Notes: generated by a model not told the origin, from the sequence alone. A stretch of 56,468 nt of DNA from a virus (IMGVR_UViG_3300032050_000168:1-56468), one strand, 5' to 3'. Numbered from the stretch's first letter, positions 775 to 40,926 are shown. Translations and numbers: made by a program.

Positions 775-3708
775 TTAATACATATTATCAAAAGGTGTTG
801 CAAATGTTGAGTAACTAGTTACCGTACCAATGGTGGGCATATAGGAACCTGGATACGCAGTGATTGCAGGCAATGGTGCTGTATTTAAATTAAATGCAAA
901 TGTGTAGTCCTGTGCAAGCCACGATGTTAATTGTGAAAATACGAAAGTCGTGTTACGGGTTGCTGAACCACCATCCCATTTGTGAGTTGTTACTTTGTGT
1001 GCACTACTCGATGATCCTGGGTATGTGTTATATAATGGTAACGCCATGTGCCAGTGAGTTGATGTTCTATGTGCAAGTGGTCCGGTAAAAATATTATATA
1101 ATGCATCCGAAGTGTTTAATCCGCCAGATGGTTCTATTCTGAGTCGTTTACCACCTAGTACCGTTCCATTTAAATCCAGAGTAAAAAATTGCATCGCATT
1201 ATATCGTCGGTCGAAATTGTCCAGTATAACGTTAAACGAAACTTCTATGACACCATTTACGTATTGTAACGATTGTTGTCGTCTTCCTTGCAAGGCTGCT
1301 CCGCCAGACGAGACATATCCAGCTTCGTCAGAGGCGTGATAAGTACTTATAAGGGTTGCCCAAGCACATTGCATTCCTCCTTCAAACGCATATGCACCTG
1401 CTGGATTATAAAACTTTGCTACTATAACTCCACTATCCTGATCAGCATTGCCATAGAGTGACTCACCTCGTCTGAATACTACATACAACTCCGATCCTAT
1501 CATTTTCGTAACTCGGGGTATCCATCCTGTCATCGTTGGATTATACCAACAAGTATGAAAATTTCCGTATCCTAGATAATAATCTCCAAATGCGGGATAG
1601 AAGGTATTAACACCATCCCCCAACATGCCAGCCACCCATAATGTAGCAGGTGCATATACGCCCACTCCGTATGGACGAAACGGCTGGTTATTAGAATTTT
1701 TTCCGAACATAACAACTGCACCACTATTATTTCCAGGATAATCAGATATTTCACTTGTACCCGATCCCCAGTTAATATACCCCCACCCATATCTAACACC
1801 ACCTTGACTCCAATTTGTGAGTCCTGTACGGAACGTATTTTGTCCATCATACAATATTGAAGTTGGATTTGCGGGAGTTCCTCTTGACATAAATGTTTCT
1901 ACGTCTGCATACACTACTCCACTTGTTACATTATAATTAAATCGGAAGGTTACATAAGACAGTCCAACTGTATCATACACTTTTATATGACCAAATATTT
2001 CTGTTCCTGCAATCGGAATCATCGACGTGGATTCATTCTTCTCGTGGTCAAATGTTTGTTCGTTTATAAAAAAGCCTGTAGGTAAGGTTATTCTTGTAGT
2101 TCTCACCAATGTACCATTTGACGTATTCTGTACGACTAATTCAAGAATACTTGCATATTCAATGTAATACGTTGCCGTCACCATATAGTTTCCAACAACG
2201 CAGGTACCTAGTACACGGGAATCTAGATCTCCTTGTGTTCCAAACCCTTTCCCCCAATTTGCAAACACAATTTCCGATGGCGACGGTGTAATTGATGGGG
2301 TAACTGTACGTGTTGGTGTAACTGTAGGAGTAACAGACGGCGTTGTAGTAACCGATGGCGTAGTAGTTGGTGTAAAACTTGGAGTGACCGGTGGGGTAAC
2401 AGACGGCGTTGTAGTAACCGATGGCGTAGTAGTTGGTGTAAAACTTGGAGTGACCGGAGGTGTGATAGATGGTGTGGTTGTAACGGACGGCGTAGTAGTT
2501 GGTGTAAAACTTGGAGTGACCTGTGGGGTAACAGATGGCGTTGTGGTAACGGATGGTGTATTAGTTGGTGTAAATGTAGGAGTAACAGACGGCGTTGGTG
2601 TAAATGTTGGCGTATTAGTTGGTGTAAATGTAGGAGTGACGGTTGGCGTTGGTGTAACGGTACTGGTAATTGTGTATGTAGGGGTTACCGTTGGCGTAGT
2701 CGTGGTAGTTGGTGTATTGGTAGGGGTTGCTGACGGACACTGCTGTACCGTTGGACTAATAATACCCACGGATGATGTATATGCGTAAGGATATAATACA
2801 CTTCCGCTTTCAAAAAATCCAGTAAATCCGGTAGTACAATTACTCTGTAAATAAATTTTACCAAAGCAATCTTTATAAAACTTGGTATTGTTTGTTGGGG
2901 TGTTACAATAATCGGTAAGCGTACCACCGCTACTTTTATATAATCCTGGAACTTCTACGCACGGACACGGTGTTACTGTTGGCGATCTAGTAATCGTCGG
3001 GGTTGTCGTTGGTGTAAATGTCGGCGTAATTGTTGGAGTTGGTGTAAATGTTGGCGTACGAGTAAGGGTGGGAGTAACCGTAGAGGTTGGTGTTACCGTA
3101 AACGTTGGGGTAAATGTTGGCGTAAAGGTTGGTGTTACCGTAAACGTTGGGGTAAGCGTTGGGGTTACTGTTGGAGTTACCGTTGGAGTCGGTGTGTTTG
3201 TGGGTGTATTTGTAGACGTAAATGTCGGAGTTGTCGTTGTGGTTGGGGTAAACGTTGGGGTAAATGTTGGCGTAAAGGTTGGTGTTACCGTAAACGTTGG
3301 GGTAAATGTTGGCGTAAAGGTTGGTGTTACCGTAAACGTTGGGGTAAGCGTTGGGGTAAACGTTGGGGTTACTGTGCTAGATGGTGTGGTGGTTTTAGTA
3401 TGTGTTGGCGTCAACGTAGTTGTTGGCGTAACGGTTGGACTGAATGTACTCGTAGGTGTTGGTGTTGGACTTGGCCCTTTATAACACAGTACATAATTTC
3501 TAACCTTCGGTGCCAGTGATGCGGTATCGGCAAGAAAATATCCCGGTGGACATCCAGTTGCAGCTAATCCTGGAGTTCCGGGGGGAGCGTAATTGGCAAC
3601 TAATGCATGTGCGGCAGTTCCAGCAGGAGCAATTACCTCATGTGCGTAACTGGATGACTCTACATATGAACTTGTTGATGGTATACCAAAAGGAAAAAAT
3701 GTACTCAC
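775..3708 (-). CDS. Giant Thr/Pro-rich (mucin-like) stalk adhesin, 977 aa
   Basis: Probable tail-associated adhesin. Seen: an N-terminal region (1-78) with ASY-type residues as in the neighbouring fibres; a first stalk (about 79-248) made almost only of T-P-T/F/V repeats; a small Cys-containing domain (about 249-325); a second T/P/S stalk (about 326-478) with a 22-residue tandem repeat; and a 500-residue aromatic, Gly-rich C-terminal domain (about 479-977) of beta-rich appearance, a plausible receptor-binding head. The start is GTG, supported by a CGGAG ribosome binding site 6-7 nt upstream. The stalks offer well over 100 Thr residues with flanking Pro, the kind of sequence mucin-type O-glycosyltransferases modify, and the gene lies just downstream of an eight-gene glycan cassette. 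The glycoprotein role is inference. Long open frames on the opposite strand here are artefacts of the repeats. Confidence 0.8.
2326..2559 (-). repeat. 66-bp in-frame tandem repeat inside the second stalk
   Basis: Three full copies and one partial copy of a 22-codon unit ([20 protein letters not shown] plus TT). The plus-strand string ttggtgtaaaacttgg recurs at about 2367, 2433 and 2499, exactly 66 nt apart. The unit is in frame, so slippage or recombination would lengthen or shorten the stalk without breaking the gene. Confidence 0.85.
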
Positions 3709-4186: not shown

Positions 4187-5047
4187 TCAACTCTCTAGAG
4201 AAAATACGTGCAACGATACTTTAATATTGGTAGTACCGGGAGTTGATGCAAGATTTTCAAGTATATAATACATTTCATTTTCTCCCATGATTGCCGCTTC
4301 ATTACTTCTAATTGCAACTAGATCGGATCCGATTGTATCTAAATTTGAACCTACAATTTTTGGAACAAAATAGGTAGTTTGACTACCAGATAATATTGCA
4401 TCAATAATTAATCCAGTACTTCCCAAAGATTCTGTGGCAAATGATCTGGAAATTTCTGTAGTATTTGAAAACACATTTGATCTACTATATAGACGTATTC
4501 TTGCTCGGGTTCCCGACCCCGATAGAGATGCACTCACCAATAAATAGGTTCGTGGAACTGTAGGATCACTTAAAGTTCCCGTTACAAATGTTCCCGTGGT
4601 TACCAACGATTGTATATAGGGGACTGTTATCCGATTGATGGTATTTACCGTAGAATCTTCCAATAAATATCTATTAAATACTATTGTTGGAGTACTTGTA
4701 TTATTATCTATTCTATAATAAGTTAATTTATTACTGGCGGTGGCAACCACGCCGTATGTAGCTGGATCAATTTTATATGTTCCTGCTACACTCATACTAA
4801 AATCGCCGATTAGTGCAATATTGTTTGGTACAAAATTGGTGGTAAACGGTCTTATTTTTTCAGTAGCGTCATCCCTACTCTGTAAATTATCGTATAAACG
4901 CAATCTACATGGAATATTTGACTGTAAGGTTAGTAACATATACGCGGAACCTAATTCAATGGATCCTGAATTAGATGCGTTTGCTTGTAATGTTACGTTC
5001 TCTCTAATTAATGAAGCGCCATCCCTAATATGATCTGCTAATCCCAT
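4187..5047 (-). CDS. Virion-associated protein, unknown (286 aa)
   Basis: Not recognised. The sequence is Ser/Thr/Asn-rich and predicted largely beta, with several strand-like stretches (SAYMLLTLQSNIPCRLRLY; TYLLVSASLSGSGTRARIRL; TTNIKVSLHVF) that look like jelly-roll or Ig-like sandwiches. It has no signal peptide or membrane segment. The ATG is preceded by AAAGGAC and, 25 nt further up, by the TATTTATA motif proposed as a late promoter. It is the first gene after the glycan cassette, followed by two mini-fibre genes and the giant stalk. Likely a tail or baseplate decoration protein. Confidence 0.6.
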   Translation of the reverse strand: MGLADHIRDGASLIRENVTLQANASNSGSIELGSAYMLLTLQSNIPCRLRLYDNLQSRDDATEKIRPFTTNFVPNNIALIGDFSMSVAGTYKIDPATYGVVATASNKLTYYRIDNNTSTPTIVFNRYLLEDSTVNTINRITVPYIQSLVTTGTFVTGTLSDPTVPRTYLLVSASLSGSGTRARIRLYSRSNVFSNTTEISRSFATESLGSTGLIIDAILSGSQTTYFVPKIVGSNLDTIGSDLVAIRSNEAAIMGENEMYYILENLASTPGTTNIKVSLHVFSLES

Positions 5048-5071: not shown

Positions 5072-5079
5072 TATAAATA
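5072..5079 (-). promoter_or_regulatory. Candidate late promoter element (TATTTATA)
   Basis: Reads TATTTATA on the coding strand, 24-25 nt upstream of the ATG at 5047, in the 42-nt gap after the glycan cassette. One of about ten such sites at comparable positions in this window. Confidence 0.45.
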
Positions 5080-5089
5080 TTTTGTATGT

Positions 5090-7435
5090 TTAGTTTTCTC
5101 TACGTTCTTCTGCCGGATAAAACTCTACTCGGTCGTGGGTGATTGGACTTGCCACCAATATACCAGGATTAATATTCCCATTTAATGTTTCTTGAAAAAT
5201 GTGACTCATCCACGTTTGTTCATACGGAAATGCCCATCGTGTTTCTAAAAACATCTTTCTATTTCCTTCTTTACTAACAATTTGAGGCCAATTGCTATAG
5301 TATACTTCTCCTGTTGCATAAGCAACCCCGTCTAATACTTTTATATTGTAAAAACGTGTATATGGTGAATTTGGATCCAATCCTGTCTCTGGTAATTTAT
5401 CGTACGATGGCCACGTCTGTGTTCTGATTTCTTGCGGCACATTATACCACGCCCATTGCTTACTGTTATCCCCATAAAATTCTGAAAATGAGAATTTTAA
5501 GAAATCAAACTTTTCTTTGAGCATGATCTTTACAATTGAGGTATACAGATTAGGAACATATTGTGTCAATCCGCACTTACATAATTTATCGGCAGTGTCT
5601 TTGCCATTGACGTGCATATCGTCTTCAAAAAACATAGAAAAATCCGCGTCAGATTCATCAAAGTGTTCTGCAGCAAATTGTCGTCCACCGCACACACCCA
5701 AATTTTCTCTATGAATTTCTTCAAATCCATACATGGTACATAATTCATCATATTCTGGAAATAGTGTCGTGTCAATAGAATTGTTTATTAGTATCTTTCT
5801 ACTTAAGACGAACATATCAGGATCGTTCTGTTTTATTGATTCACACACTGATTTAAACTGATTCGGTGAATTGAATCCCAATACGTATAAATTTGTTTTT
5901 GCTGTTTTTGGTGTAATAACTCTATGAATGCTGTTGGTTAGTTCTTTTACATCTTTTAATTTTTCAAAAAATCTCCAAACTAATCCATCTTCCAGCAATT
6001 CATAACAATATATGAACTCCGGATATTGATGTGCCAGAATAGTAAATATACTTTCTTCTGTCCCCATCAATTGTTTTTGTAAAGTATCTGTCAATACTGC
6101 ATAATATAATCCATTAATTTTGTTGATAAGAGATTTTTTACCACCAAAAAATCCACCACGACACACATAGTTAACGTGGGTTACTTCACAATATTTTGTA
6201 ATTTCTTTTCTGTCAAATCCATGAATCTCGGTTCCATCCGTATATGGATATGACAAAAATAAAAATTGATTTAAGCTCTCCACATAAGTTGATAAATTAT
6301 TTAATACTTTGTCATGTGTAAAATATCCAGGATGTACAGTTGATGTAATTCCCGCATCAAGCCAAAAGAAATATTCCGTGTCAAACGGATTAAATATCGT
6401 GGCATTGTTTAACATAAACATCTTACTCATAACAACAGGATTGTAATACTCCAACGTTGCTTGCGGGGATTCTTTAAGCCAACTTGCTTGAGAATACCAA
6501 GATTCCGTTTTTCTTATCTGTTGTACCGAGTTAAAATGTTCAAACCAAAGTTTAAATTCTTTTAATTCTAATATCTTGACCATAGTATTACTACGTGATC
6601 TATGTTTCCAGATAAACTCTTCGTCTTCCGGTGCAACAAATATAATCATATTGACGGGAGTTTTCAATAGTTCTGCAAATTTTTCTTTGTAATGTTCGTA
6701 TGACCGTTTAAATGCGGCTGATATACTTTCCCTACCCAAATCCCATAACGCAGTAACTATCGTAACATTTTGAGGTATTTCCTCTGTAAATATTTCATCA
6801 ATCGTATGTAATGTAACTTGTTTATAAGTGTCAATTAATTTTTTATATGGAAATGCCAACTGCAATTTTTCAATTATAGTATCTTCAATTTGATCATAAA
6901 ATACAGGTGTATATTCGGTACGTTTAGTATTTTTTATAAAAACCCCATAATCATATCTAACGCACAATGGAATAAGTTTTTTATGTGTTCTTAAGAAGGA
7001 AGTTAATGTAAGTTTTGGTTGCAAATGAATTTCATGCACGTTTTCATTTACTGTACCCTGCGGTGCGTTAAATGGGACTGTAATAATCAATTCAGCCGAA
7101 GTATTTAGAAGTTTTTGTATAAGACTTCGTGAATCGTTTAAATTCAGATGCTCCAGTATATCTCCCAGAATAATAAAGTCATACTGGGAAAAATCTACCG
7201 AGGTGTGCATTACGTTTTCTATAAACACATTTTTATATTTTTCCCGTAAATTATACTGCTCTACGTAGGGAAAAAATACTTCCATTGCATCAATATTAGT
7301 AAACTGCGGGGATAGTAAATCTGCATAGGTACCACATCCCGCACCAATGTCTAATATTTTAACATCTGTATTGTTGGCCGATTTTGTTATGAACTCTAAA
7401 ATTTGTTGTTTAAAAATTGTAGTACTAAATGGCAT
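5090..7435 (-). CDS. Three-domain fusion: SAM methyltransferase - HtrL/YibB-like - glycosyltransferase-like
   Basis: Seen, in order: a class I methyltransferase domain (about 1-200) with SAM motif I ILDIGAGCGTYADLL at 27-41 and FIILGDILEHLN near 89-100; an HtrL/YibB-like domain (about 223-500) opening with VTIVTALWDLGRE and containing FFWLDAGI (356-363) and a GGFFGG loop (427-432); and a C-terminal GT-A-like domain (about 512-781) with NLYVLGFNSP at its start and an acidic cluster FFEDDMH (602-608) suitable for metal/nucleotide-sugar binding. Known: HtrL/YibB proteins occur in lipopolysaccharide loci and are presumed glycosyltransferases. Inference: the enzyme adds and methylates a sugar, perhaps as a terminal cap, on the glycan made by the cassette. 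It is the last gene of the cassette, 50 nt after the carbamoyltransferase fusion. Substrates are unknown. Confidence 0.7.
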   Translation of the reverse strand: MPFSTTIFKQQILEFITKSANNTDVKILDIGAGCGTYADLLSPQFTNIDAMEVFFPYVEQYNLREKYKNVFIENVMHTSVDFSQYDFIILGDILEHLNLNDSRSLIQKLLNTSAELIITVPFNAPQGTVNENVHEIHLQPKLTLTSFLRTHKKLIPLCVRYDYGVFIKNTKRTEYTPVFYDQIEDTIIEKLQLAFPYKKLIDTYKQVTLHTIDEIFTEEIPQNVTIVTALWDLGRESISAAFKRSYEHYKEKFAELLKTPVNMIIFVAPEDEEFIWKHRSRSNTMVKILELKEFKLWFEHFNSVQQIRKTESWYSQASWLKESPQATLEYYNPVVMSKMFMLNNATIFNPFDTEYFFWLDAGITSTVHPGYFTHDKVLNNLSTYVESLNQFLFLSYPYTDGTEIHGFDRKEITKYCEVTHVNYVCRGGFFGGKKSLINKINGLYYAVLTDTLQKQLMGTEESIFTILAHQYPEFIYCYELLEDGLVWRFFEKLKDVKELTNSIHRVITPKTAKTNLYVLGFNSPNQFKSVCESIKQNDPDMFVLSRKILINNSIDTTLFPEYDELCTMYGFEEIHRENLGVCGGRQFAAEHFDESDADFSMFFEDDMHVNGKDTADKLCKCGLTQYVPNLYTSIVKIMLKEKFDFLKFSFSEFYGDNSKQWAWYNVPQEIRTQTWPSYDKLPETGLDPNSPYTRFYNIKVLDGVAYATGEVYYSNWPQIVSKEGNRKMFLETRWAFPYEQTWMSHIFQETLNGNINPGILVASPITHDRVEFYPAEERREN

Positions 7436-7465
7436 AAACTATTTTGTCCTGTAATAAACGTATGA

Positions 7466-7473
7466 TTTAAATA
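7466..7473 (-). promoter_or_regulatory. Candidate late promoter element, variant (TATTTAAA)
   Basis: Reads TATTTAAA on the coding strand, 30 nt upstream of the ATG at 7435, in the gap between the two fusion genes. It matches seven of eight positions of the TATTTATA element seen before other genes. Weakest of the set. Confidence 0.25.
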
Positions 7474-7485
7474 TTACTCCTGGTA

Positions 7486-10077
7486 CTACAAACCTCCCAT
7501 TTTTCTATGAAAATAGAAATCTTCCACATAAACCCCACTCAGTTCGGTGGATTCAAATACTTTAAATGCGTCACCTAACGTTGATAAAATGGGTTTACCG
7601 TCTACGTTAAACGACGTATTCAGTAACACACCAATGCCAGTTAGTTTTTTAAACTCGGTAATTAAATCATATAATTTCTGATTCTGTTCTCGTGTAACTG
7701 TTTGTACCCGCGCAGTTCCATCTACATGAACAATTGCAGGTATGATATTTTTATATTTTTCTTTTACTTTAGGACAAAAACTCATCCACCTGGATTCACC
7801 CTCCCATTCAAAATATTCTGACACATCTTCTAAACGAACTACAGGAGCAAATGGTCTGTACCATTCTCGGTGTTTTACTTTTAAATTCAATGTGTCTTTC
7901 ATATCGGACAGTAACGGACTACATAAAATACTACGATTACCTAACGCACGAGGACCGTGCTCCGACCGTCCGGTAATAAATCCAAGTATTTGACCCTGCA
8001 TAAGTAACGTAGCTAATTTATCTAACTCAATTGATTCTCCAAGATAACGTTCAACATATTCAGATAACCGATGTTTGTCAAGTAATTCTGGTCCTGCGTA
8101 TGTTACGTCAATTGAATCCGGTGGCATGATCATATTTGCCAGCATACCCACCGCTAACCCACAATCATTTGGATTTGGTCCAACAAACACGGGTCTATTA
8201 TATTTTTGGTTTATTTTTGTATTTAATACAATATTCAATCCACACCCACCCGTTATACAAATAGGAAGTTCTGTGTGAGATTGTATTTCCTCGTCCACGT
8301 ACTCAAAAAATAATTCTTCAAATACGTGCTGTGATGTAGCAGCTACATCATATGCAACTTGATCAATCAATCTATTCTGTATATCAAATGGTATAGAAAT
8401 TTCTTCAGATAAAATTTTAAAATGCTCTTCGTAATTCCCGCCAGAAATATTAGAAGTATATAATTTTTTAAATGCATTTACCCAATCTGTTCTTACATTA
8501 CCATATGATTGTAGTCCTAGAATTTTTCCAGCATATACCAAATTACCCAAACTTAGTGCATTTTCTTTTTTAATGTCGCCAAGATATTCACCAAATATCA
8601 TATATGGAAATCCCAAATCCAGTCTATGTTCTCGTAAAACAGTAAGTGGTTTTCCTCGTTCTGCTAGATAAATTTTAAAAAATCCATCATTACCGCCACC
8701 ATCAAACGAGATTACCAATGCTTTTTGAAATGGTGATTGATAAAATGTACCTGCCGCATGTGATTCGTGGTGCTTACACTCAACGTGAATTTTTGCAGGA
8801 AATCCTTCCCAATAGTTAACACTGCCGTGGTGTTCAATTGTTTCACAGTGTTGATGTAAACAATAACCGTATTCGGTGAAACCATATTTATTCTGAAAAT
8901 AGTCTACTATCAGTTTTGATAAGTTTTTTCTTGAATGTGCCACGTAATATTGCGTATAACCTGCGTTCTTTACATTCAAGAATCTTTCAATTTCCAACAC
9001 TTCCAAAATTTTTCCACCATATTCAACTGCAACTGATGCGTTATGGGAGCCATATACTGCTATATTTGGTAAATCAAATTTCTCATATACAAATGGTGCA
9101 GGTGACTTATACACAGGCACCAAATATTTTTCCACGTTAGTTAATCTTGACTCTTTTTCTTCTATTAAATTAAAAAATGATTTATAAAAAGACCGTGCTG
9201 AATTATCTGAGTGTAGAAAATAACATGGATCCGTTGGAACATCGTGATACCAAGTATCAAACGTATTTAAATAAAATAGTTCAGGATGAGTTGTATGTAC
9301 CACGGACATAATTCCTTCTTCCAACGGAACAACATCAGCATTCAATATAGTATCCACGAGTGCATAAAATTTTTCTGCAAACGTATGAATTACACTCGGT
9401 ACTCCTCCAAAAAAACCACCAATTAAACTTGCAGTTAATTCGGTTGGAGCTACTTCTTTAGTCCACTCAACAGGAAGTCGTATCACTTGAGTTGCATATC
9501 CAAATATTTTTGATTCACTGACAAGTAAGTCGTATAACTTATCACCCAAGTCTTCATTAAATTTTGCTGTACTTTTATTTGGATAATAGTTTTCCAAATC
9601 AAATCTTGCCAATTCAACACCACCCAATGTTTCTGGAAACAACGCATGGTGAAACAGTCCCGCATCAATCCATACTACAGGAGTTTCTTCTATTTGACGA
9701 TGTTTAATAGTATCCAGTAAAAACCATAACTTTGACAAGCACAGAATATGTAACCTATTATTATGTTTATATAATTCTGATGCGTCATTATTGAATAAAT
9801 TAACATATCGTTCTTTTAAAGAATAAACTTTTTGATAGTTTGGAAGATCTTCTAATTCCACGTGTCGTAATTCAAAATTTATTAAGTTATATTCTTGAAC
9901 GAATTTTGTTAATTCCGGTTCTTGAAATTTATCGTGATAAACCACAACTTTTTGCGTACCCAATCGTGAAATTGCATATAATGTTGGTTTATAATAAGAA
10001 AAATTCCATCCTCTACCGCCCATTATAGATAAAGGATTTGAGTAATATACTGCAGTAACTATTGTTGTATTATTCAT
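7486..10077 (-). CDS. Fusion: HtrL/YibB-like domain + NodU/TobZ-type O-carbamoyltransferase (863 aa)
   Basis: Residues 1-340 resemble HtrL/YibB proteins (TIVTAVYY at 5-12; VVWIDAGLFHH at 134-144; GGFFGG at 220-225). Residues about 338-863 are a full carbamoyltransferase: metal-binding HHESHAAGTF (437-446), CITGGCGLN (607-615), and a C-terminal YrdC/Kae1-like part with GRSEHGPRALGNRSIL (703-718), WYRPFAPVV (739-747), TARVQTV (788-794) and LLNTSFNVDGKPI (818-830). Known: NodU/TobZ enzymes transfer a carbamoyl group from carbamoyl phosphate, via carbamoyl-AMP, to a sugar hydroxyl. Free-standing members are about 550-600 aa, so the N-terminal 340 residues are an added domain. Inference: glycosyl transfer and carbamoylation of a sugar on the cassette's glycan are coupled in one polypeptide. 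All the key motifs appear intact. Confidence 0.85.
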   Translation of the reverse strand: MNNTTIVTAVYYSNPLSIMGGRGWNFSYYKPTLYAISRLGTQKVVVYHDKFQEPELTKFVQEYNLINFELRHVELEDLPNYQKVYSLKERYVNLFNNDASELYKHNNRLHILCLSKLWFLLDTIKHRQIEETPVVWIDAGLFHHALFPETLGGVELARFDLENYYPNKSTAKFNEDLGDKLYDLLVSESKIFGYATQVIRLPVEWTKEVAPTELTASLIGGFFGGVPSVIHTFAEKFYALVDTILNADVVPLEEGIMSVVHTTHPELFYLNTFDTWYHDVPTDPCYFLHSDNSARSFYKSFFNLIEEKESRLTNVEKYLVPVYKSPAPFVYEKFDLPNIAVYGSHNASVAVEYGGKILEVLEIERFLNVKNAGYTQYYVAHSRKNLSKLIVDYFQNKYGFTEYGYCLHQHCETIEHHGSVNYWEGFPAKIHVECKHHESHAAGTFYQSPFQKALVISFDGGGNDGFFKIYLAERGKPLTVLREHRLDLGFPYMIFGEYLGDIKKENALSLGNLVYAGKILGLQSYGNVRTDWVNAFKKLYTSNISGGNYEEHFKILSEEISIPFDIQNRLIDQVAYDVAATSQHVFEELFFEYVDEEIQSHTELPICITGGCGLNIVLNTKINQKYNRPVFVGPNPNDCGLAVGMLANMIMPPDSIDVTYAGPELLDKHRLSEYVERYLGESIELDKLATLLMQGQILGFITGRSEHGPRALGNRSILCSPLLSDMKDTLNLKVKHREWYRPFAPVVRLEDVSEYFEWEGESRWMSFCPKVKEKYKNIIPAIVHVDGTARVQTVTREQNQKLYDLITEFKKLTGIGVLLNTSFNVDGKPILSTLGDAFKVFESTELSGVYVEDFYFHRKMGGL

Positions 10078-10107
10078 CTGAATCCCGTGGTGTGTTTGTA
10101 AGATAAC

Positions 10108-11031
10108 TTATTTTATAACTTCTTGAATTTTATTTAGTATGTTGTATTTTTCCAAAAATATATTTTTATTTTCTAGCATGTACGGGAACATTTCGTCATA
10201 CAATTTTTCTGCGTTGTTATTTATGTCTAATATAAGAGAACGCACGGCATCCAAGTCATCCAAGTCTGGCATCTGTATATATCCTCGGGAATCATAATAT
10301 TCCGCAATATTCGTACTTCCATAATAGATCGGAATTGTGTTAGTTAACAAATTATCTGTAAATTTTTCTGTGGTATAAAATGGTTCCGCTGTATTTTCTA
10401 TTCCTATAGAAAACCGATATGATTTAAGTGCAATGTATTTATTCCATGCTTCCCCTTTACATCTACCGGTGGCGGTCCATTGTTTACCGTATACATCAAC
10501 CGGTAAATCATTGTCTATAATTAGATTTGCCACGTTCATACGTTTACGATAAATGTGAGGTGCGTCAGAAGGAACCCACCACATATTATCCGGGGAGTTT
10601 GATACCACCATACTAATATTTTCTGTTTTGGACAAGTCCCACTGATTTATGTGTTCAAGTCCCCACTCAGAATCACCACCGCCACCATACAGCATATAAT
10701 TTGGACCTTCAATTACTTTCTCATTATCATGATCAAAAATATTACGGTTTTGAACGAATACCCAATCAGAATAATCAACCGCATTGCGATCTATATTATG
10801 TGACCACGACGGTTCCATTCCAAAAAATATGGTGTGTTGTTTATCGGTTTTAAGTACGTTGTCACCCAACCTACCGAATACTATTGCCCATTCATAAGAA
10901 TCGTCGGTAACAAATTCAAAATTTTCAAAATGGTACTCATTTAATTTTAATTGTGCTAATACTCGTCCAATAATACTAACAGAAGGTTGATCGTGTGTCC
11001 ACCAGCAAAAAATTCTAATTTTAGTTTTCAT
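10108..11031 (-). CDS. GT10-family (alpha-1,3-fucosyltransferase-like) glycosyltransferase
   Basis: Residues 203-243 contain the GT10 signature: KSYRFSIGIENTAEPFYTTE, then KFTDNLLTNTIPIYYGS, matching the pattern K-F-x-[LI]-x-x-E-N ... [YD]-x-T-E-K ... N-[AL]-[LI] ... P-[VI]-x-[YF]-[GW] that binds GDP-fucose. Length (307 aa) fits bacterial FucTs of the short type; I see no heptad repeats or membrane tail. Its partner is the GDP-fucose synthase gene three genes upstream, so donor and transferase are encoded together. The start ATG overlaps the previous stop (ATGA), giving translational coupling. Acceptor unknown; another GDP-sugar donor cannot be excluded. Confidence 0.8.
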   Translation of the reverse strand: MKTKIRIFCWWTHDQPSVSIIGRVLAQLKLNEYHFENFEFVTDDSYEWAIVFGRLGDNVLKTDKQHTIFFGMEPSWSHNIDRNAVDYSDWVFVQNRNIFDHDNEKVIEGPNYMLYGGGGDSEWGLEHINQWDLSKTENISMVVSNSPDNMWWVPSDAPHIYRKRMNVANLIIDNDLPVDVYGKQWTATGRCKGEAWNKYIALKSYRFSIGIENTAEPFYTTEKFTDNLLTNTIPIYYGSTNIAEYYDSRGYIQMPDLDDLDAVRSLILDINNNAEKLYDEMFPYMLENKNIFLEKYNILNKIQEVIK

Positions 11032-11801
11032 AATTTATCTCTGTTTATTAAATAAAAATGTTCGTACGGATACTGCGGCAAATCTTCCATTACTTTGGTA
11101 TAAGGTTGTCCAAACATACCAACAATAGTAGAAGATTCAGTTTGTATATATTTTCCAGTTCCATGATTCCAAAATCCAATAAATTCTCTATTAAATCTTG
11201 AATATTTTCCAACGCCAGGTGTTATATTATCATCACGAACGTCGGATACAATATTATGAATTCCTGGTAAATAATACTCTGGGAATGCTTCATTATATTT
11301 GTCGATGTACCTATACGTTATGTCCCCGTCTTCTTCTCCAATACCCAGCAATCGTTCATCCAACCATCCTATATCAATCATTCCGTCCTTTGTATAACAT
11401 GCATGACTAAATGAACCATTGAATTTACACATTCGTGTGATGGACGAATTTATAGACTCAAACGTATCAAAAAAACTTTCATTTAAAATATCAACATCAT
11501 CGTTTAAACATAATAATAAATTAGTGGGTGAATGAATTACCAACGTATTGACTAATTTAGCGTATCCACGAAATGATGGGAAAAATATAGGATATACATT
11601 ATTTGTAGTTCCAATCAATTCCAATACCGATGTACGATACGTTTCATCAAATTCCGTATTATTTAGTCCATTTATTGCTACTAGTATAGGTATATTTTTC
11701 CTATATTCACGAATAGCTAATAATGTTTTCTTAAACATATCAAATCGTTTAGAAAACGTTGTAATACCAATACTATACGGCAAGATTGTTGTTTCTGACA
11801 T
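11028..11801 (-). CDS. GT2-like (GT-A fold) glycosyltransferase
   Basis: I chose the ATG at 11801, which has an AGAGAAG ribosome binding site, over a GTG 78 nt upstream that would extend the overlap with the previous gene. The protein (257 aa) opens with a GT-A nucleotide-binding strand (YSIGITTFSKR), has PILVAINGLN in the second strand, and an acidic metal-binding motif LCLNDDVDI at about 97-105. Known: GT2 enzymes use nucleotide sugars and build chains one sugar at a time. Sugar and linkage cannot be read from sequence. It overlaps the upstream GT7C-like gene by 29 nt and the downstream FucT gene by 4 nt. Confidence 0.7.
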   Translation of the reverse strand: MSETTILPYSIGITTFSKRFDMFKKTLLAIREYRKNIPILVAINGLNNTEFDETYRTSVLELIGTTNNVYPIFFPSFRGYAKLVNTLVIHSPTNLLLCLNDDVDILNESFFDTFESINSSITRMCKFNGSFSHACYTKDGMIDIGWLDERLLGIGEEDGDITYRYIDKYNEAFPEYYLPGIHNIVSDVRDDNITPGVGKYSRFNREFIGFWNHGTGKYIQTESSTIVGMFGQPYTKVMEDLPQYPYEHFYLINRDKL

Positions 11802-12471
11802 ATTCTTCTCTATTAAAATATAAAATGTTTTCTCTGTCTTGAAAATGCGGTAGATGTAATGGCAACACACGATCCTCACTGACCCCGGTTCGTATGAATT
11901 TATAATTCCATCTATCCATCAAATGTCCATCTTCCCCTCCCCACGTAGTAAATTTTTCATCAAAAAATCCAATGTCTTTTATAGATTTGATTGATGTTAA
12001 ATGAAATCCACCGAATCCACCAACACATCCTTTTGTAAATACTAATGGATGTGTTCCGTGCGGATCAACTTGATCTAATGGTATATTTCCATCGTCAAGT
12101 TTTGCAAAATTAAAGAAAAACCCAATTTCATATGTTACGTTTGATGCGAGAGTGGCTAACGCATCCCATTGTGTCCGATGTATAAATACATCGCAGTCCA
12201 TCAAACAAATGTTATCTTCCTCTGGAAATGTATTTATTATTCCGTTAAGTTTTTCTGATCGTTTATATGTTCCAATTGGGTATGGAATATGTGTTGCGTC
12301 GTCAATTATTTTTTCTGGTGAATAGTCAAATATATTGGCAGTAGCGGGTACCGACTTACTGTTTAGATATCGTACCATATCCTTTAAATATGGCCACGTT
12401 AAGTGTACATTTCGTTCTCTGCTACTATTTTCTTGGCCATCTGTCCAAAAAGCCATGCAGAAATGTATCAT
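11773..12471 (-). CDS. Galactosyltransferase-type (GT7 C-terminal domain) glycosyltransferase
   Basis: 232 aa. Seen: DCDVF (92-96), a DxD metal motif; GCVGGFGGFHLTSIKSI (148-164), then FFDEKFTTWGGEDGHLMDRW (169-188). The last block, W-G-G/E-E-D at the end of a G-G-F/V-x-x-F/x segment, is the hallmark of the Glyco_transf_7C family of beta-1,4-galactosyl/GalNAc-transferases and of bacterial relatives with this fold. Inference: it extends the primer GlcNAc made by the GT60-like enzymes, perhaps with a hexose, before fucosylation. Its start overlaps the stop of the GDP-fucose synthase gene (ATGA). Confidence 0.75.
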   Translation of the reverse strand: MIHFCMAFWTDGQENSSRERNVHLTWPYLKDMVRYLNSKSVPATANIFDYSPEKIIDDATHIPYPIGTYKRSEKLNGIINTFPEEDNICLMDCDVFIHRTQWDALATLASNVTYEIGFFFNFAKLDDGNIPLDQVDPHGTHPLVFTKGCVGGFGGFHLTSIKSIKDIGFFDEKFTTWGGEDGHLMDRWNYKFIRTGVSEDRVLPLHLPHFQDRENILYFNREEYVRNNNLAV

Positions 12472-13391
12472 AACCTAATGGTTCCCGTTTCATAATGTTG
12501 AGTAAACCAAGAAATTGTTTGAGATAATCCGATTGGTAACTCTGTGTATTTTATAGGATATACTAGTTGGAGTTTACTCGTATCACTTGGTTTTCTTTCT
12601 TGTCCGTTATGTTGTGTACTATCTTCAAACACAATCTTTCCCGTGAAATTCATTTCCTTTGCAATTAGATGTACCACATCACGTATTTCGTACTGAGTCG
12701 GTGATGATACTACCAATGGTTCTACATCTTCATAATTAAATATTGCCCATGCAATAACTTTTGCTAAATCTTCGGCATAAATAAATTCACGATACACTTT
12801 TCCATTTCCCATCACATTTAATGGAGTATTATTTATTTTTGCCAAATAACATTTATGAATTAATGCAGGAATTACGTGAGCAGATTCTAAATTAAATTGA
12901 TCATATTTACCATATACATTTGTAGGTATTATGGTTGTCCATTTTTTATTATATTGTGTTTGATATGCCCGAGTTTGAACTTCTAACATTCTTTTTGCAT
13001 AAGCATATCCAAAATTTGAATCATGAGGTTCTCCATCGTGGATTTTATGTGGCTGTAATGGATACGTTGTTTTATCGGGAAATATGCAAGTTGACATCAT
13101 CCCTAGTAATCGGTTCACATTGTATTGATGAGCATATTGCAATACATACGTATTCATTATGACGTTTTGTTCGTAAAATCCTACGGGATCTCTACTATTA
13201 GCCATTACCCCACCAACCTTGGACGCTAAGTGAATAACATGTGTTGGATTGTATATAGAAAACATACTTTCTACATCAGTTTTATTTGTTAAATTAAATT
13301 GAGTAGACGATATGTAGTTGGCAGAGGGTAAATATTTCTGTAAGTTTCTACCCACTAAACCCGACCCCCCAGTTACCAATATTTTGTTCAT
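12468..13391 (-). CDS. fcl: GDP-L-fucose synthase (NAD-dependent epimerase/reductase)
   Basis: Short-chain dehydrogenase fold: Rossmann loop VTGGSGLVGRN (6-16), catalytic Ser/Cys in MSTCIFP (about 99-105), and Y129-x3-K133 in FGYAYAKRM. The downstream HVIPAL (172-177) places the catalytic His as in the E. coli enzyme. MGNGKVYREFIYAEDLA matches the family's substrate-binding stretch. Length 307 aa against about 320 in bacteria. It converts GDP-4-keto-6-deoxymannose to GDP-L-fucose in the cytoplasm. No GDP-mannose 4,6-dehydratase (gmd) is in this window, so the substrate must come from the host or from a gene elsewhere in the phage. The ATG has an AGGAG site and overlaps the previous stop by 4 nt. 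Confidence 0.88.
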   Translation of the reverse strand: MNKILVTGGSGLVGRNLQKYLPSANYISSTQFNLTNKTDVESMFSIYNPTHVIHLASKVGGVMANSRDPVGFYEQNVIMNTYVLQYAHQYNVNRLLGMMSTCIFPDKTTYPLQPHKIHDGEPHDSNFGYAYAKRMLEVQTRAYQTQYNKKWTTIIPTNVYGKYDQFNLESAHVIPALIHKCYLAKINNTPLNVMGNGKVYREFIYAEDLAKVIAWAIFNYEDVEPLVVSSPTQYEIRDVVHLIAKEMNFTGKIVFEDSTQHNGQERKPSDTSKLQLVYPIKYTELPIGLSQTISWFTQHYETGTIRL

Positions 13392-14629
13392 AGTTCTCCT
13401 GTCAACCGTTCACCCCATCCATGTTCTCTTGAGTGTGGCCACACAATCCATCGTTTTGGCTGGTCTAATGTGTGAAATATTCTCCAGAGTTTACAATATC
13501 CGGCGGAGTCGTTTTTCATCATCAAAATTTCTTGTTCATTGGCATCTTCTCTATGAATTTCTACCCCTTCTTTATTTTCAAATGCCACTGCCCATACATC
13601 ATAATCATTGTACGGTACCCATGATATTGGTATATCAATACAATGTTTGAATACACGTAGATATGGTTCTCCTGGAGGATTAGGAGGTTCTTTGTGATCT
13701 AACGTATATTGTTGCACAGATCGTGTATCAAATTTAATACCTGCATAATTTTCATAATCTTCAAGCGTTCTAATAGTTCCAAATCCAAAATCACCGAAAT
13801 CTTCTGCCGGATCATGTTCTCCGTCAATGCGGAGTAATCGTCTATTTCTTGCCAAAGAAGCATTATCCCAACGTCCCCATTCTGCTATATCATCCCACGA
13901 CTTTCGTGGACGATGTTCCCGAGAATATTCATGATATACTACTGGTTTATGAGGAGAAAACAAATCATAACCCCATGTATAGGCTCGGGCAGCAATAGAA
14001 ATTTCTTCGCCATGAAATAAATAATTGGGATCGTGAGGAACTTCTTTACAGAATTGTCCAAGGGTAAATCCAAAGTGTGCTGAATAGAATCGACTCGGAT
14101 ATGGAAGTGTTCTATTTTGCCAATCTGGAATTACGGATGGAATAAAAAATACTGCTCCCTGTGGCGTAAATCTGTCAAATGTCAAAAACCACGGATCTGT
14201 TGCTCTACCAGTAGGATCATTGTGTGGTTCGTAACTTGATACATATGCAGTCAGTAATGGCTTTTTGTGTCCTACTTTTTGTAAATCCTTTACCATTTTA
14301 ATTAGTGTATCATCCCAATCTTTTGCAAATCGGTGATGTGAATCTAACTGTAACGTGTAAGCTTCATCAGTCCAATGCTTTTGAATTTGGTATCGTGCCC
14401 AACACGTTCCTCTAGTTTGTAAATGAGGTATATCAAGAATTTTAAAACGAGCATCGTTTTTAAATTCATCTAACGTATCCCAATCATCCTCGGTTGCATG
14501 TTGCCACGCAATACAAAAACGTAAATTTTTGGGTTTCTTTGCATTTGCAATACAACTACGAATCGTTGGTAATAATTCTGGATCTCGGTATGCGGCAATT
14601 TGAATAAAAATGTTTTGATTCTTTTTCAT
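13388..14629 (-). CDS. GT60-like polypeptide GlcNAc-transferase, copy 2 (413 aa)
   Basis: Same architecture as the gene just upstream and clearly its paralogue: IFIQIAAYRDPELLPTIRSC at the N-terminus, CIAWQH near 40, LQLDSHHRF (DSHH about 96-99), YLFHGEEISIAARAY and YDLFSPHKPVVYHEYSRE, the conserved blocks of the Pfam family Glycosyltransferase (GlcNAc), CAZy GT60. Known: members attach GlcNAc to hydroxyproline of Skp1 (Dictyostelium) or to Thr in mucin-like proteins (trypanosomes). A C-terminal 110-residue extension (NDYDVWAVAFENKEGVEIHR ... WIVWPHS) is shared by both copies. Inference: it initiates glycosylation on a phage protein. ATGA overlap with the previous gene. Confidence 0.78.
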   Translation of the reverse strand: MKKNQNIFIQIAAYRDPELLPTIRSCIANAKKPKNLRFCIAWQHATEDDWDTLDEFKNDARFKILDIPHLQTRGTCWARYQIQKHWTDEAYTLQLDSHHRFAKDWDDTLIKMVKDLQKVGHKKPLLTAYVSSYEPHNDPTGRATDPWFLTFDRFTPQGAVFFIPSVIPDWQNRTLPYPSRFYSAHFGFTLGQFCKEVPHDPNYLFHGEEISIAARAYTWGYDLFSPHKPVVYHEYSREHRPRKSWDDIAEWGRWDNASLARNRRLLRIDGEHDPAEDFGDFGFGTIRTLEDYENYAGIKFDTRSVQQYTLDHKEPPNPPGEPYLRVFKHCIDIPISWVPYNDYDVWAVAFENKEGVEIHREDANEQEILMMKNDSAGYCKLWRIFHTLDQPKRWIVWPHSREHGWGERLTGEL

Positions 14630-15903
14630 ATGTTAAACTCTCCAGATAATCTAGTCATCCATCCTTTACTCAAACTATGAGGCCATACTATCCATTTTGC
14701 TGGTAGGTCGTCGTGATAAAAATTTCTCCAGATGTGTGAAAATTTATCTTGTTCATACGGAACACTTAAAATTCTCTGAATTTCCTGTTCATATGCGTCT
14801 TCTCTATGAATTTCTACCCCTTCTTTATTTTCAAATGCAATTACCCAAACATTATAATCATTTTCTGTAAATTCTGGTCTATGTACGTCTATACACATTC
14901 TATGGTATTTTGCCAATCCCTGTGCATGATATACTTCATCTATTGACACGGGAGGTAATTTCTTGGTAATCGTATCTCTATGTACTTGTCGTGTACTAAA
15001 CTTTAATCCCGCATACAATTCATATTGTTCTAATGATCTAACTTGTTTTTTTACTAATTTATTTGATGGTGAGATTACATCAATACCTAGTAAAGTTCTA
15101 TTATGTTTGTGGGATGTAGTATCTAATTCTTTCCAATCAGTATGGTCATCCCAATGTTTCTTTTTACCTTCTCGTGTATATTCATGCCAAATAACTGGTC
15201 TATGTGGAGCAAATAAATCATACCCCGCCATATACGCTCGTACAGACAGATTGATCTCTTCTCCATGAAAATAGTACGTGGGGTCATATTCCACTTCTTT
15301 ACAAAATTTCCCATCGGCAAAAATAAAATGACCCGAAATAAATCGTGACGGCATTGGACGATCTAGTTCTTTAAAATTATCTATGGTGTGCGGTAAAAAG
15401 TGTACGGGCCCTTCAGGAGCAAACCGGTCAAATTCCATAATCCACGGTATCATCATTCTACCAGCGGGATCGTTTTTTGGATCAAAACTGGGAAGATAGG
15501 AACTTAATAGTGGTTTTGGGCAATCTTTTGAACGAAGACTTTCCAGCATCTCAATAACTGTAGTATCCCATCCCTTACTAAACCTGTGATGGGAATCTAA
15601 CTGCATTGTATACGTTTCTTTATTATAGGCTTTATTTAGTTGATGTCTCGCCCAACACGGACCCTTCGCATCACGATAATCAATATCAATAATATCAAAA
15701 CGAGAATCATCTTTAAACTCGTCTAAGTTATCCCACTCTTCGTATGGGGAATGTTGCCAGGCAATACCAAATCGTAATCTATCAGGATGATCAGCATTTG
15801 CTAAACAATCCCGTAATGTATTTAATAATTCAGGATCTCGGTATGCGGCAATTTGTATATAAATCGTTGGATTAGAAACTTTTTTCTTTTTTCTTGGAGC
15901 CAT
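14626..15903 (-). CDS. GT60-like polypeptide GlcNAc-transferase, copy 1 (425 aa)
   Basis: N-terminal basic stretch (APRKKKK), then the GT60/PF11397-type blocks: IYIQIAAYRDPELLNTLRDC, FGIAWQH, MQLDSHHRF (DSHH 103-106, the metal/UDP-sugar site), PKPLLSSYLPSF, YYFHGEEINLSVRAY (HGEE 213-216) and YDLFAPHRPVIWHEYTRE. The C-terminal extension (NDYNVWVIAFENKEGVEIHR, later WIVWPHS) is shared with the next gene; such an extension could recognise the acceptor. First gene of the glycan cassette, preceded by a GAGGG ribosome binding site. Family relatives transfer alpha-GlcNAc to hydroxyl groups of proteins, not to lipid carriers. The Thr/Pro-rich stalk and Ser/Thr-rich fibres encoded nearby are therefore the natural candidate acceptors (inference). 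Confidence 0.8.
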   Translation of the reverse strand: MAPRKKKKVSNPTIYIQIAAYRDPELLNTLRDCLANADHPDRLRFGIAWQHSPYEEWDNLDEFKDDSRFDIIDIDYRDAKGPCWARHQLNKAYNKETYTMQLDSHHRFSKGWDTTVIEMLESLRSKDCPKPLLSSYLPSFDPKNDPAGRMMIPWIMEFDRFAPEGPVHFLPHTIDNFKELDRPMPSRFISGHFIFADGKFCKEVEYDPTYYFHGEEINLSVRAYMAGYDLFAPHRPVIWHEYTREGKKKHWDDHTDWKELDTTSHKHNRTLLGIDVISPSNKLVKKQVRSLEQYELYAGLKFSTRQVHRDTITKKLPPVSIDEVYHAQGLAKYHRMCIDVHRPEFTENDYNVWVIAFENKEGVEIHREDAYEQEIQRILSVPYEQDKFSHIWRNFYHDDLPAKWIVWPHSLSKGWMTRLSGEFNI

Positions 15904-15969
15904 ATAACCCTCGTGAGGAAACCTTTAACTTACCAATATACATATTATTCACTTTGTTGTCAAGTGGGT

Positions 15970-20237: not shown

Positions 20238-20245
20238 TATAAATA
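20238..20245 (-). promoter_or_regulatory. Candidate late promoter element (TATTTATA)
   Basis: Reads TATTTATA on the coding strand, 30 nt upstream of the ATG at 20207, in an 84-nt intergenic gap. A variant, TATTTATG, lies at 20281-20288 in the same gap. Confidence 0.4.
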
Positions 20246-20291: not shown

Positions 20292-21485
20292 TTAAGTAGT
20301 AACAATTTGAGTATTTTGTAATTGAATTGATGTTGCGTCTATACTACCATCCGCATTTAACCGAATTATTTTTTCAGCGGTGATTGATTTATATGAGCTG
20401 AAAGTTCCACCGACGTATAATTTTCCGCTTGAGTCAATCGCGAGAGATGTAACACTACTATCAAACGCTATAGAATTATCAAAATTGGTATCTTTCGTTC
20501 CATCGGCATTTAATCTGATAATATTATTTGCCGTAACTCCTTTATACGTAGTAAAACTACCACCAACATATAGTTTTTCATTAGTATCAAGAATCAAAGA
20601 ATATACAAGTTCTAAATTTCCAAACGCCGTTGAGTTATCAAACGCTGTGTCTTTGGTTCCATCTGCATTGAGTCTGATGATACTATTTGCTTGAACTCCT
20701 TTATATAATTCAAAAATTCCACCAACATACAGCTTTCCACTAGAATTTAAAATTAATCTTAAAACGGAACCATCAAACCCTGTTGAATTATCAAACCCCG
20801 TATCTTTGGTTCCATTCGGATTCAGACGAATTATACTATTTGCTTCCACTCCTTTATATAAAATAAAATTTCCACCAACATATATTTTTCCGTTGGAGTC
20901 AATCTCAATAGAATTTACTTCCGCGTCAAACCCAGTTGAGTTATCAAACGCTGTGTCTTTGGTTCCGTCTGCGTTGAGTCTAATAATATAATTTGCTTGA
21001 ACTCCTTTGTATGAAGTAAAAAATCCACCAACATATATTTTTCCGTTGGAATCAATTTTTGTGATATAAACCGACGCAGTATCTGCTGGAATAGTAAACC
21101 CTGTTGAATTATCAAACGCTGTGTCTTTGGTTCCATCTGCGTTGAGTCGGATAATACCGTTTGCTGCAACGCCTTTATAACTAGTAAAACTTCCACCAAC
21201 ATATATTTTTCCGTTGGAGTCAATCTCAATAGAATAAACTCCTCCATTAAACCCTGTTGAGTTATCAAACGCTGTGTCTTTGGTTCCGTCTGCGTTGAGT
21301 CTAATAATATAATTTGCTGTAACGCCTTGGTACGAAGTAAAAAATCCACCAACATATATTTTTCCGTTGGAATCTATTACAACTACTTGCACGGTGTTGT
21401 TGAATGCACCTAATATATTACTTCGTAATTTATTAGTAATAATAATTGAGTTAGTTCCCTCTGGTTTAATAACCATCATATTCAT
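20292..21485 (-). CDS. Seven-repeat beta-propeller adhesin (delta-60/DUF5122-like), 397 aa
   Basis: Seven tandem repeats of about 50 residues with consensus IDSNGKIYVGGxFTSYKGV followed by IIRLNADGTKDTAFDNSTGF; the last ends in IRLNADGSID. This is the delta-60 repeat (DUF5122) pattern, predicted to fold as a beta-propeller with one blade per repeat. An N-terminal 37-residue segment precedes repeat 1. The nucleotide repeats are well conserved, implying recent homogenisation. The ATG has GGAGAA about 9-10 nt upstream. Propellers of this type often bind glycans or proteins. In a fibre cluster it is most likely a receptor-binding or accessory subunit (inference). Confidence 0.8.
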   Translation of the reverse strand: MNMMVIKPEGTNSIIITNKLRSNILGAFNNTVQVVVIDSNGKIYVGGFFTSYQGVTANYIIRLNADGTKDTAFDNSTGFNGGVYSIEIDSNGKIYVGGSFTSYKGVAANGIIRLNADGTKDTAFDNSTGFTIPADTASVYITKIDSNGKIYVGGFFTSYKGVQANYIIRLNADGTKDTAFDNSTGFDAEVNSIEIDSNGKIYVGGNFILYKGVEANSIIRLNPNGTKDTGFDNSTGFDGSVLRLILNSSGKLYVGGIFELYKGVQANSIIRLNADGTKDTAFDNSTAFGNLELVYSLILDTNEKLYVGGSFTTYKGVTANNIIRLNADGTKDTNFDNSIAFDSSVTSLAIDSSGKLYVGGTFSSYKSITAEKIIRLNADGSIDATSIQLQNTQIVTT

Positions 21486-25136: not shown

Positions 25137-25940
25137 TTATATTCCAAAACGGTCACGTAACGAAATATAATTTTTAAAAACTTCACCTGCCGTTAAACCA
25201 CGATTATATATTTTTACTGCCGCAATTCTTCCATCCATATAAAACGGTGATGCCGCAGGTGATCGTCTTCCAATTTTTATAGGAACTGCTGGTTCTCCTC
25301 CATATGCTTCAGCCGTGGTAGGTGAGTTGGTTCCAGGTATTTCCACACCATTTAAATATACTTTTGCAGTATTTGATGCTACCGTTGTGGTATTTGTAGT
25401 AATAATTGACGTTAAGTTATACCACGTGTTACTATTCAATAAAGAATTTCCAGAAAACCAATTTAATGGATATCCTCCCGTAGTTCCATTTTTTGCCCCC
25501 ACGAATATTTGTCCATTAAGACCTCCATACACCGCCCAACCCCCAACGTCTAATGCTTTAGTAACAAGCATTCTATTAAAAGTCAACGATGTGAAATTAA
25601 ACCACACATCCACCGTAAATGTTGTATTTGCAAAATCAAATGTAGAATTGGCAGTATTTGCTATATCCGCATAATGTGAACTTGCTGATGTAAACAGTAT
25701 ACTTCCACCGTTTGCACTGTTAAACGTTGGTCCGTTGATTAATGTTGCATTTCTTGAATTTCCTGTCAGGTCTGTCCATGTAGTTCCACTACCGGGGTAT
25801 GATGCTCTATTTCCTGCGTCTAAATTAATAACCAATCCCGCCGTAGTTATTTGTGGAACAGCAACCATACCCCCAGGATTACCCGATGATGCCCCAGAAA
25901 ATCCGCCAGGATTTCCACTACTCGTAAATGACCACGGCAT
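25137..25940 (-). CDS. LamG/concanavalin A-like lectin adhesin (267 aa)
   Basis: After a Gly/Pro-rich leader (SSGNPGGFSGASSGNPGG) residues about 35-260 form a laminin-G-like jelly roll: GLVINLDAGNRASYPGSG, TWTDLTGNSRNATLINGP, FTVDVWFNFTS, NTAKVYLNGVEI and the closing GRIAAVKIYNRGLTAGEV, the characteristic strands of LamG_3 domains. Known: the fold binds glycans and proteins in many phage and bacterial adhesins. The start overlaps the previous stop by 1 nt (TAATG), so it is coupled to the 1143-aa fibre and may be its tip. The duplicated SSGNPGG at the N-terminus may be a flexible tether. Confidence 0.8.
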   Translation of the reverse strand: MPWSFTSSGNPGGFSGASSGNPGGMVAVPQITTAGLVINLDAGNRASYPGSGTTWTDLTGNSRNATLINGPTFNSANGGSILFTSASSHYADIANTANSTFDFANTTFTVDVWFNFTSLTFNRMLVTKALDVGGWAVYGGLNGQIFVGAKNGTTGGYPLNWFSGNSLLNSNTWYNLTSIITTNTTTVASNTAKVYLNGVEIPGTNSPTTAEAYGGEPAVPIKIGRRSPAASPFYMDGRIAAVKIYNRGLTAGEVFKNYISLRDRFGI

Positions 25941-33361: not shown

Positions 33362-33369
33362 TATAAATA
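33362..33369 (-). promoter_or_regulatory. Candidate late promoter element (TATTTATA)
   Basis: Reads TATTTATA on the coding strand, 25 nt upstream of the ATG at 33336 (minus-strand context AATATTTATAGATATA). Confidence 0.5.
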
Positions 33370-34800: not shown

Positions 34801-34808
34801 TATAAATA
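34801..34808 (-). promoter_or_regulatory. Candidate late promoter element (TATTTATA)
   Basis: Reads GATATTTATAC on the coding strand, 25 nt upstream of the ATG at 34775 and just downstream of the gp19 terminator, as expected for the promoter of a new unit. Confidence 0.5.
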
Positions 34809-35396: not shown

Positions 35397-35404
35397 TATA
35401 AATA
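35397..35404 (-). promoter_or_regulatory. Candidate late promoter element (TATTTATA)
   Basis: Reads ACATATTTATAGTT on the coding strand, 26 nt upstream of the gp19 ATG at 35370, between the hairpin that follows gp18 and the gene. Confidence 0.5.
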
Positions 35405-40918: not shown

Positions 40919-40926
40919 TATAAATA
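40919..40926 (-). promoter_or_regulatory. Candidate late promoter element (TATTTATA)
   Basis: Reads GATATTTATATATG on the coding strand, 23 nt upstream of the gp13 ATG at 40895, just after the terminator of the capsid gene. Confidence 0.5.

Follow-up and report, generated by a model that had tools for sequence, protein, structure and literature searches.

Analysis of the viral record IMGVR_UViG_3300032050_000168 (56,468 bases, possibly a fragment; the whole stretch is called the window below) revealed a cassette of predicted glycan genes at 5090-15903. All eight open reading frames (ORFs) listed in a preliminary description of this DNA are present on the minus strand. From the first gene to the last, with expectation values (E) of the Pfam search, they are:

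14626..15903, minus strand: GT60a, PF11397 (ppGlcNAc/GalNAc-transferase-like), candidate peptide-initiating transferase; E 2e-69
13388..14629, minus strand: GT60b, paralogue of GT60a, 51% identical; E 2.5e-71
12468..13391, minus strand: GDP-L-fucose synthase (GFS); PF01370 E 3e-47, STCIFPD and YxxxK motifs present
11773..12471, minus strand: GT7C-like transferase with a GGED motif; PF02709 (Glyco_transf_7C) E 5e-5, barely above the cut-off
11028..11801, minus strand: GT2x, GT-A-like transferase without a Pfam match; LNDDVDI and GEEDGD motifs seen by eye, probable start ATG at 11801
10108..11031, minus strand: GT10-like fucosyltransferase; PF00852 E 1e-12
7486..10077, minus strand: fusion of a YibB-like domain and a TobZ/GdmN/NodU-type O-carbamoyltransferase; PF16861 (C domain) E 2e-62, PF02543 (N domain) E 4e-25
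5090..7435, minus strand: methyltransferase, YibB (GT-A), and second GT-A domain; HtrL_YibB E 1e-18, Methyltransf_23 E 1.4e-6

Most of the family labels given earlier were recovered by Pfam, namely the two GT60 proteins, the GDP-L-fucose synthase, GT10, GT7C, the carbamoyltransferase, and the methyltransferase. The GT60 proteins scored 241 and 235 bits against a curated cut-off of 21, and the GT10 protein scored 48 bits against 23.9, with PDB fucosyltransferases matched at E 6e-10 to 5e-7. The nearest PDB chain of the GDP-L-fucose synthase was the human GDP-L-fucose synthase (E 6e-81), and the carbamoyltransferase matched GdmN (E 4e-48). HtrL_YibB reached only E 0.013 in the carbamoyltransferase fusion, which is under the cut-off. 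The label "GT2-like" did not stand, as the search with 11028-11801 gave no meaningful match and no glycosyltransferase (GT) family up to E 1. In the 5090-7435 protein, EDDM and EQT-MS were invariant among 55 aligned relatives. Its structure model comprised a NodS-like methyltransferase and two GT-A domains, with LH3, ColGalT1, and chondroitin polymerase as the nearest folds, and this fold search backed the C-terminal GT domain.

The overlaps reported for the first six genes were also found. GT60a/GT60b, GT60b/GFS, GFS/GT7C, and GT2x/GT10 each overlap by 4 nucleotides (nt; ATGA), and GT7C and GT2x overlap by 29 nt, provided that the ATG at 11801 is the start. The three junctions after GT10 have gaps of 30, 50, and 42 nt. 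The main genes of the window are all on the minus strand, in the order terminase, portal, head, sheath, fibres, cassette, fib286, and stalk, and the cassette therefore lies inside the structural module. The two genes that follow it are:

4187..5047, minus strand: fib286, putative fibre protein; homologues flank the cassette in relatives
775..3708, minus strand: Thr/Pro-rich (mucin-like) stalk, proposed acceptor; 429-residue tract with 164 Thr, 34 Ser, 81 Pro, and 69 TP

The AlphaFold/AF2 model of GT60a had a pLDDT (predicted local distance difference test) of 93.3; the input alignments of the structure models held no rows from annotated phage records. In the Foldseek search with this model, the 44 best PDB matches were all polypeptide N-acetylgalactosaminyltransferases (ppGalNAc-Ts, GT27), with E values of 3e-10 to 7e-8 and template modelling (TM) scores of 0.41-0.50. 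No GT60 relative was found among PDB sequences by sequence search. D103, H105, R107, E216, and H240 were invariant across 53 GT60 sequences; D103-x-H105 is the DxH metal motif, and H240 is a candidate for the catalytic C-His. A previous survey of GT-A enzymes grouped GT60 with GT27, since both families have the DxH motif and O-glycosylate Ser/Thr of polypeptides (PMC7185993). In the mostly open-access literature searched, PF11397 was named in one paper, on a brown alga. From its family, DxH motif, and predicted fold, GT60a is predicted to be a mucin-type peptide O-HexNAc (N-acetylhexosamine) transferase, and the ppGalNAc-T-like fold and the motif back the earlier idea of GT60 as the polypeptide primer.

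Our search found at least 591 IMG/VR contigs with a GT60 relative, of which the best 80 were kept, and 78 GT60 loci in GTDB genomes. The viral comparison set comprised 85 loci. Among these, a YibB-type gene was present in 75, the C-terminal GT in 65, a carbamoyltransferase in 22, a GDP-L-fucose-synthase-type gene in 9, GT10 in 9, a methyltransferase in 8, and GT7C in 6, and a second GT60 gene directly followed the first in 27 of the 85 displayed. None of these cassette profiles matched in 80 loci around related capsid genes. The recurring partner of GT60 is the YibB and GT part of the 5090-7435 type gene. Of the 123 remaining middle genes, those recognised by Pfam were mostly transferases and methyltransferases (FkbM methyltransferase 10, GT2 9, Methyltransf_24 6, PLOD GT 5, and GT25 4), and many had no match. 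GT60 and YibB-GT are thus a conserved frame, and the genes between them vary from phage to phage. Versions of this kit are common in aquatic viruses and are also found in some bacteria. Four GT groups have been reported in the core genome of aquatic "moraphages" (PMC12619734). In three loci (L081, L086, and L095), ORFs matched both the GT60 and YibB profiles and are possible fusions.

In one relative, G002 (capsid 78%), the order was PT-rich (Pro/Thr-rich) genes, GT60a (65%), GT60b (78%), further genes, GDP-L-fucose synthase (65%), further genes, GT10, further genes, YibB-GT (62%), fib286, and PT stalk. After the stalk came a second cassette-like set, in which GT60-like and carbamoyltransferase genes each occur twice. 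Another, G001 (capsid 83%), had a different, shorter set adjoining its own fib286 and PT stalk. The gene order had been read as a pathway order; we dropped this reading because the order is permuted among relatives. The supposition that such a cassette is unusual was likewise not supported, given the number of contigs with a GT60 relative and the several transferases in most of the sampled cassettes.

Scoring of 33 window genes (2-43735) singled out 775-3708 as the only one with a tract rich in Thr and Pro alike. Its N-terminal 76 residues were common to the PT-rich genes of L005, L008, G002, and G069, and fib286 homologues adjoin the cassette in L005, L006, L008, G002, G069, and G001. We tested the co-occurrence of GT60 and PT-rich genes in both directions and by permutation. 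A PT-rich ORF was at most one gene from GT60 in 19 of 73 de-duplicated viral loci, with 8.3 expected (0 of 10,000 permutations). Of 1,487 ORFs in these viral GT60 loci, 61 were PT-rich, versus 1 of 1,267 around the capsid genes of GT60-free loci. In the other direction, for PT-repeat contigs of at least about 35 kb, GT60 was present in 10 of 26 with at least three exact repeats versus 0 of 13 with one or two. The survey suggested in the preliminary description was thus positive overall, with exceptions such as Xanthomonas phage XacN1. Its claim of a protein-glycosylation cassette for virion decoration is supported, and the co-occurrence makes the stalk the probable carrier of the glycans.

In bacteria, 12 GT60 loci had PT-rich genes, all at most three genes from GT60 (6.4 expected, 3 of 10,000 permutations). 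In L109 (Jiulongibacter sediminis) and L104 (a Saprospiraceae genome), GT60 and YibB-GT lay beside PT-rich proteins in bacterial gene surroundings. The N-termini of these proteins carried signals that by eye resemble those for twin-arginine translocation (Tat), NRRLALRELFLGSS and NRRKALKTILGASS. Export by Tat would fit cytosolic modification before export. The bacterial candidates are:

L109:8974-9762, L104:8507-9652, L126:10042-10521, and L178:4596-6539, bacterial contigs: PT-rich proteins with a Tat-like N-terminus beside GT60
L120:16646-18994, L122:15075-17564, and L137:15123-17498, Burkholderiales, also L130 and L136: VgrG-type proteins with a Thr/Pro-rich tail, three genes from GT60

VgrG was identified by Pfam in L122 and L137, and other PT-tailed proteins have N-terminal sequence in common with these. 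We tentatively suggest, at somewhat less than even confidence, that GT60 and YibB-GT are a general prokaryotic mucin-type O-glycosylation system. Its substrates would be the Thr/Pro-rich tracts of phage stalks, of surface proteins exported by Tat, and of VgrG tails of the type VI secretion system, all modified in the cytosol prior to export or assembly.

For the window itself, we consider it likely that the cassette encodes a cytosolic, sequential, mucin-type protein O-glycosylation that decorates the virion of the phage carrying it, above all its Thr/Pro-rich stalk, most likely without an oligosaccharyltransferase. We infer its acceptor, donor sugars, and step order as follows. One or both GT60 enzymes would place the first HexNAc onto Thr/Ser of the TP repeats, and GT7C, GT2x, and GT10 would extend it. 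The phage GDP-L-fucose synthase would complete GDP-L-fucose from an intermediate of the host or of genes outside the fragment. PF16363 (Gmd-type) matches of at least 367 bits were found in 10 of 24 GT60 records; the family is broad, and a phage supply of its own GDP-fucose is therefore likely rather than established. YibB-GT, the carbamoyltransferase, and the methyltransferase would add or cap with further groups, and the conserved GT60/YibB-GT with changeable genes between would give each phage a different coat.

The late-gene setting claimed for the cassette was supported in part: it lies among structural genes, and its late expression is plausible from this position and from an upstream motif. 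The motif, TATTTATA, occurs in 10 copies on the coding strand of the window and one on the other strand. Exact copies stood 23-30 nt before six genes (6 of 53), including those of the tail tube and fib286 (24 nt upstream of the latter), when 15-44 nt upstream of the start was tested; the chance is 0.5% per random position. It is possibly a late promoter of this phage group. The sites are:

5072-5079, 20238-20245, 33362-33369, 34801-34808, 35397-35404, and 40919-40926, coding strand (minus at 5072..5079): TATTTATA before structural genes
15935..15963, minus strand: GT60a upstream element, TTGACA-N17-TATATT overlapping TATGTATA, 33 nt before the start

TATGTATA has one mismatch to TATTTATA, and single-mismatch sites occur at 4% of random positions, so this copy is not significant alone and late expression stays short of proof. 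An identical sequence lies upstream of GT60a in L005. In L009 and L010, TATTTATA stands 29 nt before GT60a, and it is also just upstream in G002 and L027. A TTGACA/TATATT promoter before GT60a, common to L005, was rejected, since promoter-like matches were no commoner than in shuffled sequences.

Several points weigh against virion glycosylation centred on the stalk. The fold match of GT60a was only moderate (TM 0.41-0.50), exact TATTTATA is not found before the window's own GT60a, and glycosylation of this phage is a prediction from its genes. Roughly half of the viral GT60 loci lack a PT-rich gene inside 10 kb, and none adjoins the cassettes of XacN1 and RAS14. The PT thresholds were set during the analysis, and the loci, which are the best-scoring ones, are partly interdependent. 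Fibre and stalk genes tend to cluster in any case, and a common fibre module may account for some of the PT proximity. Within the capsid lineage the association was weak: PT repeats were present in 2 of 3 GT60-positive and 3 of 23 GT60-negative records, and many of these records are fragments. The virions of XacN1, which has a related cassette, contain at least two glycoproteins by proteomics, and this favours virion glycosylation; GTs including ORF334, a GT60 relative, were suggested as their makers in that paper, which does not show the responsible genes (PMC5852040).

These glycoproteins, present in a phage without a PT-rich gene beside its cassette, and the Ser/Thr-rich stretches of two window fibres (22271-25087 and 25940-29371) also fit virion glycosylation with another main acceptor, such as the capsid, the sheath, or these fibres. 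The adjacency of PT genes in both viral and bacterial loci argues against it, and we consider it unlikely, although it is the strongest of the alternatives.

The carbamoyltransferase and the GTs could instead act on 5-hydroxymethylpyrimidines of the phage DNA, which we regard as improbable. A phage carbamoyltransferase is known to make 5-carbamoyloxymethyl-deoxycytidine (PMC8670742). PF00303, the thymidylate synthase (TS) family, had matches in six of the 26 GT60 records of at least 75 kb (the window is itself a fragment). By hand count from tables, all six belonged to the 13 records with a carbamoyltransferase, and 0 of 13 without one had a match. An apparent link of the two families, initially 6 of 9 versus 0 of 15, was weakened by a whole-record carbamoyltransferase search and a tree. 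In that tree, 31 cassette-type carbamoyltransferases form one clade (100/99), which includes XacN1, RAS14, Jiulongibacter (a bacterium), and the window; a few of the 31 lie on short contigs where no GT60 is visible. Three from outside cassettes stand apart as a separate clade, one of them from a phage with TS and 2-oxoglutarate oxygenase genes; the enzyme of PMC8670742, of the same family, lay outside the comparison. That the cassette enzymes group apart from these three weakens the DNA reading. XacN1 has a canonical Asn-type TS, and G072 (178 kb), G002, and G069, possible fragments, have a cassette carbamoyltransferase but no PF00303. Carbamoyltransferases flanked by GTs also occur in unmodified contigs (PMC8670742), and GT60 is a polypeptide-transferase family, which counts against a DNA target. 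We prefer carbamoylation of a glycan and give less weight to a connection with DNA modification in a single lineage. In that respect, three PF00303 proteins (L397, L398, and L399, from G067, G068, and G075) have Asp at the position for use of deoxycytidine monophosphate (dCMP), position 177 of E. coli TS, as in the dCMP hydroxymethylase type, and these phages may modify cytosine. The PF00303 gene of L398 adjoins a deaminase-like gene.

Phage GTs are known to serve in serotype conversion, and the cassette might alter the lipopolysaccharide or capsule of the host and block superinfection. By hydropathy, none of the eight cassette proteins of the window has a membrane segment, and 1 of 278 non-GT60 ORFs spanning the sampled cassettes looks membrane-spanning. 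Neither GtrA (membrane flippase type, of Gtr serotype conversion) nor a Wzy_C-type ligase (of lipid-linked O-glycosylation) was found in 22 relatives. These results disfavour remodelling of the host surface, and the position in the structural module with PT-rich neighbours also speaks against it; we consider it very unlikely. Still more doubtful is a route like that of Skp1, in which a prolyl 4-hydroxylase would first act on the TP tract and GT60 would then glycosylate the hydroxyproline: the eukaryotic GT60 Gnt1 does target hydroxyproline, with a glycan continuing Gal-Fuc (PMC6939170), and the tract is Pro-rich, but its Thr:Pro ratio is two to one and PF13640 oxygenases, the only oxygenase family searched, were found in just 2 of 24 GT60 records.

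The proposed O-glycosylation of the stalk resembles the mucin-type ppGalNAc-T (GT27) and protist GT60 polypeptide GlcNAc-transferase systems in having a GT-A fold with DxH, Thr/Ser of TP tracts as the predicted target, and stepwise extension, but would be cytosolic and is phage-encoded, with a GT60 pair and YibB-GT, carbamoyl, and methyl genes. With the Skp1 pathway of Dictyostelium and Toxoplasma (Gnt1 GT60, PgtA GT2/GT74) it would share a cytosolic site, GT60 as the first enzyme, and hexose followed by fucose; it differs in that a prolyl hydroxylase, sought by one family, was not found in most relatives, the fucosyltransferase is GT10-like, and the acceptor would be a repeat tract. Mycobacteriophages also encode glycosylation of their virion proteins (Freeman et al. 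2023, cited in PMC12619734), and there, according to the citing paper, the targets are C-termini of capsid and tail-tube subunits, whereas here a longer, variable cassette is tied to PT-rich stalks. XacN1, with its reported virion glycoproteins, is also comparable, as its ORF334-ORF330 hold GT60, carbamoyltransferase, and YibB-GT in a row. It has one GT60 and no PT-rich neighbour, and the stretch compared gave no match to the GDP-L-fucose synthase, GT10, or GT7C of the window. As an isolate with a related cassette, XacN1 offers a phage in which the prediction is testable. Few phages have documented virion glycosylation, and the present cassette is widespread and modular, with a predicted enzyme class and acceptor. 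If true, this would be a prokaryotic parallel to mucin-type glycosylation and would assign a role to many as yet unannotated transferases of phages and to their TP-rich stalks.

A megablast search of 3700-25000 of the window against the phage collection gave no match. The capsid protein was 55% identical with that of Flavobacterium phage immuto and 51% with that of Microcystis phage Mel-JY01. The window fibre genes from 29371 to 16179 had 100% protein identity to L023 (IMGVR_UViG_3300031758_000671), which stops before the cassette. DUF5122 beta-propeller and LamG-type domains were found among the fibre genes, at 20292-21485 and 25137-25940.

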